Source: a virus
IMG/VR virus record: IMGVR_UViG_3300031730_000191
Coordinates: 1-45,849 of that record
Strand: one strand, 5' to 3'
Length of the DNA: 45,849 bases
Shown: positions 21,925 to 30,508 of the stretch, one piece after another
Position numbering within the stretch: position 1 is the first letter of the stretch
How the letters are laid out: each line of letters begins with the position of its first letter
The notes under the pieces: generated by a model
Told to the model about the DNA's origin: nothing
Database searches by the model: none
The model's input: the letters and a program-made list of their open reading frames with translations, nothing else
Position numbers and translations under genes: made by a program

Positions 21925-23088
21925 ATGAATGAAGCAGAAATGAAAGCCGTTAGCGACAAGCTGGCGGAGATTAAGAGCGACGTGCTCAAGGCCGCCGAAC
22001 AGGCCGCCAAGAATCACGGCGACCTGACCACGTCCACAAAGGCGGATATCGACCAGCTTCTGGCGACTCAGAACGAGCTCAAGGGCCGTCTTGCGGCAGC
22101 CGAGCAGGAAATCGTCGCGCGAACCGCGGCGGCCGGTGCACAGCCGGTTCGCGTCAAGTCGATCGGTGAGCAGTTCGTCGAGTCCGAGCAGGTCAAAGCC
22201 CTTGGCGGCAAGATCATGCGCGGTCAGAACGTGTTCGTGAACGTCAAGACGGCGAACGTGACCGGCGACCTGGCGTCGCGGATCATCCTTCCCGAGCGTC
22301 TCCCGAGCTTGCCGCGTTTGCGTCGGCGCTTGTTCCTGCGCGACATTATCGCGTCCGGTACGACTCAGTCGAACCTGCTCGAGTACGTGCGCGAGACGGG
22401 CTTCACCAATGCAGCCGATCCGGTAACGGAAGGCACACTGAAGCCGCGGTCGACTTTGACGTATGACCTGGTGAGCACTGGCGTGAAGACGCTGGCGCAC
22501 ATCTACAAGGCGTCCAAGCAGATCCTGGCGGACTTCGGCCAGCTGGCTTCCGACATCAACAATGAGATGACCTACGGCCTCAAGCTGGTGGAAGAGACTC
22601 AGATGTTGAGCGGCAGCGGCACGGGTGCCAACCTCTTGGGCATCATCCCGCAAGCGTCGGCCTACAGCGCTGCCTACACTCCGGCCAGCCCGCAGAACAT
22701 CGACACTCTGCGCCTTGCGATTCTGCAAGCCGAGTTGGCGCTGTTGCCGGCTGACGCGATTGTGCTGCATCCGACCGACTGGTCCAAGATCGAAACGACC
22801 AAGGACAGCCAGGGCCGTTACATCTTCGCCAACCCGGTCGGTGGTGTGGCGCCTCCGAGCCTGTGGGGCTTGGACGTGGTGCCGACTCAGGCGATGACTG
22901 CCGGTCAGTTCCTGACGGGCGGATTCGCGTCTGCCGCGACCGTTTATGACCGCGAGGACATGAACGTGCAGATTGCGACGCAGAACGAAGACGACTTCGT
23001 GAAGAACATGATCACCATCCGATGCGAAGAGCGTCTTGCGTTGGTCGTGAAGCGTCCGGAAGCGTTCATCTACGGCGCGTTCATCTAA
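21925..23088 (+). CDS. Major capsid protein, HK97 fold
   Basis: 387 residues. The first 70 or so are a charged coiled coil (MNEAEMKAVSDKLAEIKSD..., the delta/scaffold domain) followed by AAAGAQPVRVKSIGEQF, near which the maturation cut is expected. The rest has the HK97 pattern: LRDIIASGTTQSNLLEYV, AHIYKASKQIL, ALLPADAIVLHPTDW, and a C-terminal RCEERLALVVKRPEAFI. GGAG eight bases upstream fixes the start. A dispersed site and an intrinsic terminator follow it, separating capsid production from the downstream genes. Confidence 0.95.
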   Translation: MNEAEMKAVSDKLAEIKSDVLKAAEQAAKNHGDLTTSTKADIDQLLATQNELKGRLAAAEQEIVARTAAAGAQPVRVKSIGEQFVESEQVKALGGKIMRGQNVFVNVKTANVTGDLASRIILPERLPSLPRLRRRLFLRDIIASGTTQSNLLEYVRETGFTNAADPVTEGTLKPRSTLTYDLVSTGVKTLAHIYKASKQILADFGQLASDINNEMTYGLKLVEETQMLSGSGTGANLLGIIPQASAYSAAYTPASPQNIDTLRLAILQAELALLPADAIVLHPTDWSKIETTKDSQGRYIFANPVGGVAPPSLWGLDVVPTQAMTAGQFLTGGFASAATVYDREDMNVQIATQNEDDFVKNMITIRCEERLALVVKRPEAFIYGAFI

Positions 23089-23118: not shown

Positions 23119-23149
23119 GGCGCCGGCTCGAAAGGGTCGGCGCCTTTTT
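23119..23149 (+). terminator. Intrinsic terminator after the capsid gene
   Basis: GGCGCCG and CGGCGCC form a seven-base-pair GC stem around GCTCGAAAGGGT, followed by TTTTT. Partial termination here would lower expression of the glycan and connector genes relative to capsid. Confidence 0.85.
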
Positions 23150-23160
23150 AGGGGGTTTTG

Positions 23161-23481
23161 ATGTTAGTACGGGCTATCAAGCCGTTCGATAAGAAGCATC
23201 CCGGCACAGTGTTTGACACTACGTCATTCCATGCCGCGGAACTGATACGTAACGGCATGGCCGTTGAACACAAGATGAGGACGCCGCCCGTCAATAAGAC
23301 GGCGGCGACTCCGCAGAACAAAGGCGCACCCGAAGCGGGAAAAGCGCCGGCCGATGGCGTGGAACTACCGTCGTCTGTCTCGCCAGCGGCCCTAGTCTCA
23401 CCCCTGCCGACGTCGAGCACGTCCGCCGCTGGCGCGCGACCGACGCTCCGTTTGCGCAAGCCTCGCGCAAAGCGATCGTAA
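23161..23481 (+). CDS. Small protein after capsid; zero-frame product of a frameshift pair
   Basis: 106 residues. The N-terminal half (MLVRAIKPFDKKHPGTVFDTT...ELIRNGMAVEH) resembles short phage proteins commonly found right after the capsid gene. The second half is a low-complexity Pro/Ser/Thr tail ending in basic LRLRKPRAKRS. It overlaps by about 180 bases the -1 frame that encodes an MptE-like domain, and carries a slippery heptamer in that overlap. Confidence 0.65.
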   Translation: MLVRAIKPFDKKHPGTVFDTTSFHAAELIRNGMAVEHKMRTPPVNKTAATPQNKGAPEAGKAPADGVELPSSVSPAALVSPLPTSSTSAAGARPTLRLRKPRAKRS

Positions 23482-23975
23482 TCAACACGACGTTTCGGGC
23501 CGCCCCATGGGCCGACGTCCTATATGCGTGTGATTACGCATGGTGGAAACAATATGCGCTCGAAATTGATAGGGCTTTTAGCGGCGAGCGGTGGTCTTGC
23601 TCGACTCGTGCGAAGACGGAATATCGCAGCAACTGGGTGCAAGGTGAACCCGGAAAAGGACTATCACACCGACCGGGTGTGGTGCACACCGGCCAAAACT
23701 CCGGATATCAAGCCCTTGGCCTCGCCTACATGTGGGGAGCTAAGCGCGTCTTACTGCTCGGCTATGACTTCATGTTCAGTGGCGGCAAGCGTCATTGGCA
23801 TGGGGATCACCCTAACAGCTTGGGAAATTGCGGCGGAAACCTGGCGACTTGGGTTCAAAGCATGGGGTTTCTCGCCGCAGATTTAGAAAAGGAAGGCGTC
23901 GAGGTCGTGAACTGCTCACGAACTACGGCACTCCGCTGCTTCCCGCGAAGCACGATCGACAAAGAACTTACTTGA
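23161..23975 (+). CDS. Predicted -1 frameshift product with MptE-like (DUF115) domain
   Basis: The -1 frame open from 23298 to 23975 encodes TTVVCLASGPSLTPADVEHV, then NTTFRAAPWADVLYACDYAWW, NSGYQALGLAYMWGAKRVLLLGYDF, RHWHGDHP and EGVEVVNCS. This is the full signature of MptE-like/DUF115 proteins, the domain also present in Maf-type flagellin glycosyltransferases. No ATG, GTG or TTG exists in this frame before the conserved start of the domain; the first candidate is a GTG near 23634, which would delete half of it. A -1 slip at G GGA AAA (23337-23343) would fuse residues 1-61 of the zero-frame protein to it, giving about 271 residues. Alternatives are an ancestral frameshift mutation or a sequencing error. 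Confidence 0.65.
23337..23343 (+). other. Slippery heptamer G GGA AAA
   Basis: GGGAAAA in exact X XXY YYZ register with the zero frame (codons GGA AAA). It lies inside the overlap of the two frames, and a -1 slip leads directly into the MptE-like frame. A small CGCC/GGCG hairpin follows almost at once; its spacing is shorter than usual. Confidence 0.65.
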
Positions 23976-23984
23976 GGGTACCAA

Positions 23985-24809
23985 GTGAAAATCACAGTTT
24001 ATGGATACGGCTACGTCGGCAAAGCGGTCGCGCGATTCCTCGAGGACCACTATGAACTGCAGTTAGTCGACCCGGCCGAGTTCTCCGGCGCGGACTTGCG
24101 TAGCGCTAACGACACGGGGTTTGTTCCGACGGACTACGCCGTGATATGCGTGCCAACGCCGATGGGCGCCGACGGGTCGTGTGATTACTCGCATGTCACG
24201 GCGATTCTGAAAGCCGCGCGCCATACCCACTACCTGGTCAAGTCTACGATTCCGCCGGGCACGACGGAGAAGCTGAACTTCAACGCATCCAAGGGCGTTA
24301 CGGTGTGCTTCAGTCCTGAGTATATCGGCGAAGGGAATTACGAAGTTCAATGGTGGAAGGACTTCGCGCACCCTACGGATATGAAGAAGCACAGCTTTCA
24401 TATCTTCGGCGGGGTGCCGTCGGCAACTACCAAATGGGTTGATATCTGGCAGAAGGTCGCCGGATGGGTGCCGATCTACGCGCAGACGAACAGCCGCACG
24501 GCCGAACTGGTCAAGTATGGCGAGAACATGTTTCTGGCCTCCAAGAAGGTCATTTTTACCGAGTTCTACAAGATCGCCGAGGCCATGGGCGTGGACTTCC
24601 ACACGTTCCGCCAGTTGTTGTTGCTCGACGCGCGCATGGGGCCGGCTATGACGCTGGTTTTCCCCGATAAGCTTGCATTTGGCGGGAAGTGCCTGCCGAA
24701 GGACACGCAAGCACTGGTTAACGCGTCGGTGAGTTACGGCCATTTCCCGAAATTGTTTCAGGACGTGATAGACCGGAATAAGGACTTTGCCGAGCTCGAC
24801 AAGTCGTGA
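23985..24809 (+). CDS. UDP-sugar dehydrogenase-like protein, short form
   Basis: 274 residues; GTG start after TTGAGGGT. Rossmann NAD motif YGYGYVGKAVA at residues 4-14, VICVPTPMG, KSTIPPGTTE and FSPEYIGEG follow the UDP-glucose/GDP-mannose dehydrogenase family. The catalytic cysteine loop is present as FGGKCLPKDT, with YGENMFLASKK before it. The C-terminal UDP-binding domain of full-length enzymes (about 390-430 residues) is missing, so substrate or activity may differ. First gene of a sugar cassette lying between the capsid and connector genes. Confidence 0.85.
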   Translation: MKITVYGYGYVGKAVARFLEDHYELQLVDPAEFSGADLRSANDTGFVPTDYAVICVPTPMGADGSCDYSHVTAILKAARHTHYLVKSTIPPGTTEKLNFNASKGVTVCFSPEYIGEGNYEVQWWKDFAHPTDMKKHSFHIFGGVPSATTKWVDIWQKVAGWVPIYAQTNSRTAELVKYGENMFLASKKVIFTEFYKIAEAMGVDFHTFRQLLLLDARMGPAMTLVFPDKLAFGGKCLPKDTQALVNASVSYGHFPKLFQDVIDRNKDFAELDKS

Positions 24810-24934
24810 TCGCCTGGCTGTTTTGGATGGCTATAGGGTTGCTCATGGTTTGGGTGGGAAGCCCAACGAAAAGCGGCACGGTCTATCTAAGCGTCCGCGA
24901 AATCATCATGGCCGACCGGAAGCGCAAGTCGTGA
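24806..24934 (+). CDS. Small membrane-anchored protein, 42 aa
   Basis: GTG start overlapping the previous stop (GTGA), and its own stop overlaps the next GTG. One hydrophobic segment (IAWLFWMAIGLLMVW) followed by a basic tail. It may tether cassette enzymes at the membrane, but this is a guess. Confidence 0.5.
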   Translation: MIAWLFWMAIGLLMVWVGSPTKSGTVYLSVREIIMADRKRKS

Positions 24935-25692
24935 AACTCGACGGCCTCACGCTAATCATTCCGTACTACCGGAATGTGGCAATGCTCAAGATGCAACTGG
25001 CCGCTGTAGCACGGTACGACCCGCGCATAAAGGTTGTCGTTGTAGACGACGGCAGTCCGGAACCGGCCGAGCAGGCCATACGATCGTCGGGCTATCTGTG
25101 GCAGACGTTCGGCGGCCGACTCGAGGTGTACCGGATCCTGGAAGACATTCCATGGAACCGCGGCGGGGCGCGCAACTTGGGCGCGACGGTGTGCACGACC
25201 GACTGGCTAATGCATATCGACATTGACCATTTGCTGCCGATCACATGCGCCGCGCGAATGCTCGAGGTTGACGGTCTGAAGCCTACATATTGGTATCGGT
25301 TCCCGCGCTACCGGGTAGGGATCGCGGACGAAACGCGCAATAAGGACGCAATCCCACGTGATGCGACCTTTGGCGCGATCAAGCCGCACATTGACAGCTA
25401 TCTGTGTACGAAGTCCGTGTACTGGCTGGCTGGCGGATATGATGAGGACTACAGCGGCTGCCTCGGAGGCGGATCGCCGTTCCTGCAGCAACTTGAGCGC
25501 ACGGCGCCCGTGAGCCTTATGCCTCCCGACGTGCATCTACACGTCTATACGCGCAGTGCATGCGCCGATGCGTCGGATTTCAGTTTGAGCCGGGATACCT
25601 CAGAGTACAGCCGGCGCCGGAAAGCGAAGGAAGCGACGGGCGCCACGCGCGCTAAGAACCCGCTGCGCTTCAAGTGGGAACGCGTCCTGTGA
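24931..25692 (+). CDS. Family 2 (GT-A) glycosyltransferase
   Basis: 253 residues. N-terminal nucleotide-binding strand LTLIIPYYRN, then VVVVDDGS, NRGGARNLGA and WLMHIDIDHL, with D-x-D as metal ligand (about residues 92-94). GGYDEDYSGCLGGGSPFLQQL is the acceptor-side motif common in GT2 enzymes. Likely cytoplasmic, transferring a sugar from a nucleotide donor. GTG start fixed by overlap with the preceding stop; a longer in-frame upstream start would run through another gene. Confidence 0.9.
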   Translation: MKLDGLTLIIPYYRNVAMLKMQLAAVARYDPRIKVVVVDDGSPEPAEQAIRSSGYLWQTFGGRLEVYRILEDIPWNRGGARNLGATVCTTDWLMHIDIDHLLPITCAARMLEVDGLKPTYWYRFPRYRVGIADETRNKDAIPRDATFGAIKPHIDSYLCTKSVYWLAGGYDEDYSGCLGGGSPFLQQLERTAPVSLMPPDVHLHVYTRSACADASDFSLSRDTSEYSRRRKAKEATGATRAKNPLRFKWERVL

Positions 25693-26339
25693 GTTACCCG
25701 ATAGTTGCGGATGAGTTCCACACAATGGGACTTGTTGCTAAAGGCTTCTCCCTGGCGCGGTTCGGCGACGGTGAGATGAAGATGGCCGAGGGTTTCGGCT
25801 ACGCGCGGGAACCCGGAGGCCCGAAGTTGGCCGCGGAACTATCGCGGACATTGCGTACGCCACACGTTCGCTGTCTGGTCGGTATACCGACGTACGACCC
25901 GCAAGGGCCGAAGTATAGGAACTGGCTACGGCATCAAGCGCGTTTCGAGGATTTGCTACAGCCGCGGCAACCTTACTTCTCGGCGTTCGTGAGCCGGCCG
26001 GACTCGGCGCCCTGGATCAACTGCCGCGAATACGCGGTATTGGTTGAAAGCGTATGGGCCGGTAAGAAGACGGTTGTAGTATGCGAGAAATCAGGTTCCA
26101 TGCTGCAGACAGTGAGCATGGCTTCCGCTTATGTTAAGCACATAGCCTGCCCACATCGCGAAGCTTACGGGCAGATAGACTTGATCGAAGACAAGGTACG
26201 CGCGGCGCGGCCGGACGTGGTCATTATGTCCGCCGGCCCAATGGCCACGTGCTTAGCAAACCGACTAGCCGCGGATCATATTCACGCGGTCGACCTTGGA
26301 TCCGCCGGCGGGTTCCTCGGCCGGCTGCTCCGGTCATGA
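25689..26339 (+). CDS. GT-D fold glycosyltransferase-like protein
   Basis: 216 residues with the GT-D (DUF1792-type) hallmark FSLARFGDGEMK near residue 20 and later VIMSAGPMATCLANRLA and AVDLGSAGGFLGRLLR, which match the family's C-terminal nucleotide-sugar site. GT-D enzymes extend O-linked glycans on serine-rich proteins in other bacteria. GTG start overlaps the GT2 stop. Placed in the capsid-connector cassette, so a virion protein is the likely acceptor. Confidence 0.8.
   Translation: MSYPIVADEFHTMGLVAKGFSLARFGDGEMKMAEGFGYAREPGGPKLAAELSRTLRTPHVRCLVGIPTYDPQGPKYRNWLRHQARFEDLLQPRQPYFSAFVSRPDSAPWINCREYAVLVESVWAGKKTVVVCEKSGSMLQTVSMASAYVKHIACPHREAYGQIDLIEDKVRAARPDVVIMSAGPMATCLANRLAADHIHAVDLGSAGGFLGRLLRS
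26252..26267 (+). promoter_or_regulatory. One-arm copy of the dispersed site in the GT-D gene
   Basis: CTTAGCAAACCGACTA: left arm TTAGCAAAC intact, right arm degenerate. May be chance, but the orientation agrees with the other late-region sites. Confidence 0.35.
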
Positions 26340-27037
26340 AGTCGATTGTATGTTGGATTTGGGGCGGCGGGACGCGTCAGTACACGCCGCAGCACGTCAA
26401 CGTACTGGCCAAGATGTTCAAGCGCCACCTGGCCGAGGAACACCGTTTCATCTGCGTAACGGATGGGACGGCAGGCTTTGACAAGGGCGTGGAAGTGTTC
26501 CCGACGCCTAAGCAGGCTGTACAGGTGGGGCGCTTCAAGAGTCCGGAGGGCGTTAGGTTCCCTTCCTGCTATCGCCGCCTGTGGATGTTCTCCGAAGACG
26601 CCAAGGTGCTCGGCGAACGGGTTCTGCTAATCGACGTCGACCTAGTGGTATTGAAGGACGTCACACCCATATTTAACTTAACGGCCGACTTCGTCGGCTG
26701 GCGGCCTTATCGCGATTGGGGCGCACAGATGCGCTATGGCGGCGGGATCTATTTGCTAACGCCAGGCACGCGCCGGCACGTTTGGGAGAAGTTCGACGGC
26801 CAGCCGGGGATCAACCGAGCTCGCGCCGCGGGCTTCCGCGGATCCGACCAGGCATGGCTTAGCTACATGCTCGGCCCGAAAGAGGTGCACTGGCCGAAGT
26901 CCTCCGGCATTTATTCAATACGCGACTTTCCGCAGACGCCGAACGCGCCTCCCGCTGACGCGCGGCTGGTGCAGTTCAACGGCCCGGTAAAGCCCTGGAA
27001 TAGCCCGCTAGTGTGGGCACGGCAACATTGGCGGTAA
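26336..27037 (+). CDS. GT8-like glycosyltransferase
   Basis: 233 residues from MKSIVCWIWGGG. Central ERVLLIDVDLVVLKDV contains the D-x-D metal motif of GT-A retaining transferases; YGGGIYLLTPG and RGSDQAWLSYML are the usual later motifs. Overlaps the previous gene by ATGA. Third glycosyltransferase in a row, so the cassette could build a short oligosaccharide. Confidence 0.8.
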   Translation: MKSIVCWIWGGGTRQYTPQHVNVLAKMFKRHLAEEHRFICVTDGTAGFDKGVEVFPTPKQAVQVGRFKSPEGVRFPSCYRRLWMFSEDAKVLGERVLLIDVDLVVLKDVTPIFNLTADFVGWRPYRDWGAQMRYGGGIYLLTPGTRRHVWEKFDGQPGINRARAAGFRGSDQAWLSYMLGPKEVHWPKSSGIYSIRDFPQTPNAPPADARLVQFNGPVKPWNSPLVWARQHWR

Positions 27038-29854: not shown

Positions 29855-30508
29855 ATGGACGCAGAAGCGACAAGGCTTTGCCCGAAATGCGAGGTTGAGA
29901 AATCAACCCTGGAATTCTATTTCTTTAAGTCTGGGCCTTCGACGTACTGTAAACCGTGCTGCCGTCGTAACGCTATAGACGCCAGGCTCCGAGCCAACGC
30001 GAAAATGTCCCCTGAACAAGCGGAGGCCAAGCGCGTCTATATGGCGGAATATTCCGCGAAATACCGAGCAGACCCAAAAAACGCAGATAAGTTGCAGGCA
30101 AAGTATTTGCGGCATAGGGGGCGTCATCCCGAGAAGAATAGGGCCAAACAAAGAGAACATCGTGCGCGCAATCGGGATTTAGCTCTGTTCAGGTCTGCGC
30201 AATCCCGAGCAAAAACGCGAGAATGGGATTTCACGATTACTCGCCAATGGCTTAGAGCGAAGCTAGAGGCTAACGTTTGTGAGGCCACGGGATTGGCGTT
30301 CGCTAACGGAGAATATGTCGGCGCGGGTCATGCCGATCCTTTCAGCGCATCGCTTGACCGGCGCGATTCAACAAAAGGCTACACGCCTGAGAATTGTAGA
30401 TTGATTCTTTGGGGTTTGAACATGGCGCTAAGTCAGTGGGGCGACCAAGTTTACGCAGAAATTGCCACGGCGTACCTTAGTAAAAAGGCTAGTAAAATCA
30501 ATGGCTAA
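29855..30508 (+). CDS. Zinc-finger HNH-type homing endonuclease, probable insertion
   Basis: 217 residues. N-terminal CPKCEVEK...YCKPC is a four-cysteine finger. A long charged helix-rich linker follows, then C-E-A-T-G-L and FSASLDRRDSTKGYTPENCRLI, the HNH-like core of a group of free-standing endonucleases. It begins immediately after the chaperone stop and overlaps the tape-measure start. It is visibly more AT-rich than its neighbours, so it looks like a mobile insertion in the tail module. Confidence 0.8.
   Translation: MDAEATRLCPKCEVEKSTLEFYFFKSGPSTYCKPCCRRNAIDARLRANAKMSPEQAEAKRVYMAEYSAKYRADPKNADKLQAKYLRHRGRHPEKNRAKQREHRARNRDLALFRSAQSRAKTREWDFTITRQWLRAKLEANVCEATGLAFANGEYVGAGHADPFSASLDRRDSTKGYTPENCRLILWGLNMALSQWGDQVYAEIATAYLSKKASKING

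Follow-up and report, generated by a model that had tools for sequence, protein, structure and literature searches.

A programmed -1 ribosomal frameshift very probably joins a small domain encoded directly after the capsid gene (ORF A) to an MptE-like/GT42-like domain (B) in the viral DNA analysed here (the window: 45,849 nucleotides, positions 1 to 45,849 of IMG/VR record IMGVR_UViG_3300031730_000191), judging from the window and its relatives. Ribosomes translating ORF A would pause at an RNA stem or pseudoknot located 5 nt past a slippery site, which is G_GGA_AAA in the window and C_CCA_AAG, C_CCT_TTR or a C_CCY tetramer in relatives, and a fraction of them would step back one base and continue reading in frame B. 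The resulting protein would comprise the folded N-terminal domain of A (about 40 aa plus linker, 61 aa in the window, a post-capsid domain of ~50-60 aa) followed by the entire B domain, with non-slipping ribosomes completing A with its 0-frame tail. A first-pass annotation had proposed programmed -1 frameshifting here, and the proposal gained support from a conserved overlap, missing start codons, localised slip motifs, a 5-nt spacer and a covarying pseudoknot, from which we infer that slippage occurs in vivo.

ORF A (23161..23481, + strand; ATG at 23161, 106 aa) encoded a small post-capsid protein matching phrog_2616 (E 3e-7) and was situated immediately downstream of an HK97-type major capsid protein gene (21925..23088, +; PHROG 10 major head protein, E 1.9e-76). 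The gap between them held an intrinsic-terminator-like hairpin (23119..23144, +), of a kind no more numerous in the sequence than in shuffles, at the place where phage PMG1 has an annotated terminator. Sequence and ORF lists placed frame B, open for 225 codons at 23298-23975 (+), in the -1 register of ORF A (ORF A in frame 1 and B in frame 0 of the window), as the first-pass annotation had described. Its further claim that B has no usable start before the signature also held in the window sequence: upstream of TTVVCLASGPSL, the ASGPSL signature, not only ATG, GTG and TTG but also CTG, ATT, ATC and ATA were absent, and the earliest GTG of B lay deep within the domain, at 23637. Likewise, the heptamer G_GGA_AAA (23337..23343, +) indeed occupied the X_XXY_YYZ register of frame A and was positioned with respect to the stem as C_CCAAAG, C_CCTTTR and C_CCY are in relatives. 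When codons of ORF A were shuffled, the chance of any in-register XXXYYYZ in the start-less stretch was 18% (P ~0.18), so the heptamer is unremarkable in a single sequence and the case needed relatives. A 5-nt spacer (23344..23348, +) separated the slip site from stem 1, whose 5' arm GGCCGATGGCG (23349..23359, +) had one A.G mismatch in the window and whose 3' arm CGCCAGCGGCC (23381..23391, +) consisted of the codons for A-S-G-P in B. The loop strand of stem 2, the pseudoknot helix (23370..23378, +), formed a weak pairing of ~5 bp in the window with CGACG near 23408, and one of 9-11 bp in many relatives. Following the -1 shift, the B domain (23343..23975, +; phrog_4603, E 7.8e-49) would contribute 210 aa to a predicted fusion of 271 aa, 61 of them from A, with a predicted junction of AGK-SAGRWRGTTVVCLASGPSLTPADVE in the window and IPK-ACGWRVAVCLASGPSLTAE in phage D3.

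The structural model of A showed a confident beta-beta-alpha-beta domain (residues 1-37) followed by an unstructured tail, which in the 0 frame was A/S/P-rich and then K/R-rich, and the shift point fell in the linker after the folded domain. A match to the N-terminal domain fold of ribosomal protein L9 (E 0.2) was too weak for use and was rejected. B was modelled confidently (pLDDT 93.6), and its nearest solved structure was the MptE-type HPPK of the archaeon M. jannaschii (8sd5; E 3.7e-3, prob 0.99, TM ~0.43). The first-pass designation of B as MptE-like gained support: PF01973 (MptE-like) matched weakly at E<0.01 in 42 of 61 B homologues (best 1e-7) and the nearest fold agreed, but the window protein itself scored 22.1 bits, under the Pfam gathering cut-off of 34.6. 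The name alpha-2,3-sialyltransferase came solely from the label of PHROG 4603, and the search against solved GT42 enzymes gave no significant sequence match (best E 0.54). B has a GPSL-type signature like that of PF01973 MptE-like proteins and GT42 sialyltransferases such as CstII and may share their fold; its sequence similarity to them is sub-threshold, and unlike them it lacks a stand-alone start and would be fused to A. In six loci (L044, L058, L068, L030, L048 and L053), the B frame extended over ~500 codons and took in a second domain resembling GT9/heptosyltransferase on visual inspection, and in one D3-type record (L274) a gene annotated as GT9 followed a few genes further downstream.

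A sugar cassette (23985..27037, +) was inserted in the head operon of the window, separating B from the connector genes, and had Pfam matches to UDP-Glc/GDP-Man dehydrogenase, GT2, GT-D fold and GT8-like families, the last below its Pfam cut-off. Homologues of these other sugar genes adjoined B in only some relatives. Given glycosyltransferase-type neighbours in the window and some relatives, together with the GT9-like extensions, it is plausible that B takes part in glycan or nucleotide-sugar chemistry close to the capsid, and B may transfer a sugar or a comparable group to some part of the virion or the host. Alternatively, B might be made by frameshifting and act on a non-sugar substrate, for example as an MptE-type diphosphokinase on a small molecule, with A merely a translation leader. 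This would agree with the closest solved fold being MptE/HPPK, with the weakness of the GT42 match and with the patchy association of the sugar genes with B, but the glycosyltransferase genes of the window cassette, the extension of homologues into the GT9-like region and the GT9-annotated gene near B in a D3-type record all weigh against it, and we consider it unlikely, if well short of negligible.

We collected B homologues in IMG/VR, in GTDB genomes and among annotated phages and collapsed them to 96 representatives with <80% identity. In 72 of these 96, a small upstream ORF was overlapped in the -1 frame by B; ORF A usually stopped 55-121 nt past the GPS signature. The layout recurred in dozens of distantly related phages, both metagenomic ones and reference phages of Pseudomonas, and in prophages from a range of proteobacteria. 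Of the 65 frameshift loci with enough sequence to test, 64 had a capsid homologue upstream of B. Searching the phage collection at the protein level with an A sequence returned no match. In the 69 start-less loci (reference plus held-out sets), the upstream ORF crossed in the -1 frame in 62, of which 26 were also crossed in +1, and in +1 alone in just one. Homologues read from an in-frame ATG (phage PAJU2 ORF010, P7 HdmB and others) were not single-base variants of this arrangement, the outcome that the first-pass annotation had named as telling against a frameshift; they formed a separate class of stand-alone genes with neither the -1 overlap nor excess RNA pairing.

In Pseudomonas aeruginosa phage D3, orf6.5/orf7 is directly homologous to A/B, carries CCCAAAG and likewise overlaps in the -1 frame: the B-homologous region began ahead of the annotated orf7 start, in the -1 register of orf6.5. 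D3 differs in annotation, with two genes and a truncated orf7, and a frameshift there is unreported in the searchable literature. Across six D3-type records inspected, the start was placed inside the domain in four (D3 included), no B gene was annotated in one, PMG1 had an upstream start of GTG/TTG type, and an A-B fusion was annotated in none.

The PMG1 annotation illustrates a different explanation, internal initiation, by which B would begin at a GTG/TTG or non-standard start codon within A. In its favour, an in-frame GTG/TTG occurred at position -66 of frame B in many D3-type members, including most of the phages, and GTG/TTG was available in 12 of the 72 overlap loci. Against it, the -66 codon was absent from diverged members, 57 of the 72 loci had no ATG, GTG or TTG (ATG was present in three), and near-cognate starts were missing as well from 30 of the 69 start-less loci. 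Even near-cognate codons were lacking in 8 of the 11 loci in which a B-frame stop lies <=51 nt from the signature. As the start position was not conserved whereas the slip site and pseudoknot were, we regard internal initiation as very improbable.

Slip sites were counted as identical-base triplets in the A-frame register, anchored on a conserved tryptophan codon of B. Such triplets occurred at position -15 in 48 of 65 loci (CCC in 40), and heptamers gathered there too. The remaining in-register positions had them in 1-15 of 65 loci, mostly 1-10, with the two highest counts (13 and 15) flanking the slip site, and the off-register maximum was 18 of 65, at neighbouring -14. Held-out loci reproduced the position. 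The commonest classes were C_CCT (14) and C_CCC (12), alongside the heptamers CCCTTTG/A/T, CCCAAAG, GGGAAAA/C and AAACCCT/C and single others, while 11 of 69 loci had no identical-triplet site at the expected place. CCCAAAG was unchanged in all 43 contexts of the D3 group, in which both flanks varied. In several loci a B-frame stop 42-51 nt ahead of GPS means that the shift must fall at or after the conserved slip site, and the site found there was usually a C_CCN codon. These motifs match ones measured in E. coli, where C_CC.A_AA.G gave up to 54% frameshifting with the IS3 pseudoknot and C_CC.Y tetramers exceeded background, with mixed statements on G_GG.A_AA.A within the same paper (PMC4066793). 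Shine-Dalgarno-like stimulators upstream of the slip site were found in only 20 of 55 loci and are not general. Near the slip position, three frameshift-type loci (L019, L022 and L029) carried the tetramer C_CCG, which is weak in E. coli.

Stem 1 of the family, GGCCGCUGGCG/CGCCAGCGGCC, comprised 10-11 bp beginning 5 nt past the slip site. Its pair 2-9 was seen as G-C, C-G, A-U, U-A and G-U, five standard pair types, and its pair 6-5 as C-G, G-C and U-G, with paired loci outnumbering shuffles at both. Overall, 85.7% of cells in the stem 1 alignment paired, the covariation score was reached by 0 of 500 shuffles and slid registers scored far lower; in held-out loci, pair 2-9 again occurred as C-G and as A-U. 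The loop GUCGUCUGC paired with GCAGACGAC, 15-23 nt past the start of GPS, forming the pseudoknot helix. In ~20 loci this stem 2 had 9-11 bp at one position, with an A-U/C-G exchange in an extra pair, and some loci retained the pairing with one-codon register shifts. Under a synonymous-codon null, z was 1.94 (stem 1) and 1.28 (stem 2) in frameshift loci and 2.03 and 1.34 in held-out loci, compared to 0.46 and 0.06 in stand-alone homologues and -0.07 to 0.34 at control offsets. This null resamples B codons and ignores frame A, and the need to encode A as well could account for some of the conservation at synonymous sites. These position-specific tests replaced whole-region folding, whose energies relative to codon shuffles failed to distinguish frameshift loci from stand-alone ones, and RNAalifold, which predicted from the alignment not stem 1 but a short hairpin inside the GPSL codons. 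Rfam had no family matching the structure. The window's own fold energy was ordinary (z -0.58). The family displayed the recognised marks of a frameshift site, a start-less -1 overlapping ORF, an in-register X_XXY_YYZ or Z_ZZN motif at a conserved position and a stimulatory structure 5-8 nt downstream, the last at family level, with an imperfect stem 1 and a weak stem 2 in the window.

Transcriptional slippage, in which stuttering of RNA polymerase switches the frame, would result in the same fusion, but the sites were mostly CCC-type triplets without long A/T runs, and a conserved RNA pseudoknot with a 5-nt spacer is a ribosomal stimulator, making this explanation highly improbable. The window by itself is a single view, yet an assembly or sequencing indel or a decaying pseudogene is refuted by the relatives and can be practically discounted, since the same layout with intact B domains occurred in 72 non-redundant loci, among them isolate prophage assemblies, dozens of independent phages and the reference phages D3 and Psp6.

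Programmed -1 frameshifting of this form has several partial precedents. The tail-chaperone G-GT of lambda and its relatives likewise relies on a -1 shift close to where a small phage ORF ends, through which a minor product acquires a second domain (PMC5009743). Unlike it, A/B follows the capsid gene, gains an MptE/GT42-like enzyme domain and has a conserved pseudoknot within the enzyme's signature codons. Phages T3, A2, A118 and PSA produce frameshifted capsid proteins with C-terminal extensions as a minor form, a resemblance to A/B that includes the head gene region (PMC5009743). In those phages, the capsid gene itself is extended (by an Ig-like domain in T3 and A2), whereas in A/B the enzyme-like domain is added to a different gene, one that follows the capsid gene. 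Signals of IS3/IS911 transposases are similar in their Z_ZZN or X_XXZ_ZZN motif, 5-nt spacer and pseudoknot, and IS3 test constructs had 5 nt from ZZZN to the pseudoknot (PMC4066793), but their gene content is unrelated and C_CCY tetramers dominate in the A/B family.

The first-pass view that this context is unlike known phage frameshifts agreed with the literature: searches of open-access main text found no phage in which a frameshift involves a glycosyl- or sialyltransferase, and no such case appeared among the passages of PRFect, the 2013 GeneTack survey, the 2014 heptamer survey and the 2016 recoding review reached by a targeted term search. A/B is recoding of a known type in a genetic setting for which the open literature searched gave no earlier report; the phage programmed frameshifts described there serve tail chaperones and structural extensions of capsid and tail rather than adding an enzyme-like domain. 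A may direct the enzyme domain to the capsid or to assembly sites. More tentatively, and on balance doubtfully, the family might constitute a widespread new recoding class in which the shift puts a catalytic glycan- or nucleotide-modifying domain on a protein associated with the capsid, a fixed minor share of which would bring the enzyme to the virion shell. The records inspected omit B, truncate it past the signature or, in PMG1, assign it a GTG/TTG start, and the role of orf6.5/orf7 in phage D3 becomes directly testable. With C_CCY tetramers alongside strong heptamers, and loci with and without full pseudoknots, the family also offers a natural variant set for the determinants of bacterial frameshift efficiency.

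Unlike tail chaperones, which lie between the tail tube and tape measure genes, B directly followed the capsid gene region. The window also carried, a short way upstream of its putative tape measure gene, an ORF (29855-30508) with CxxC and HNH-like features, by eye possibly a homing endonuclease.
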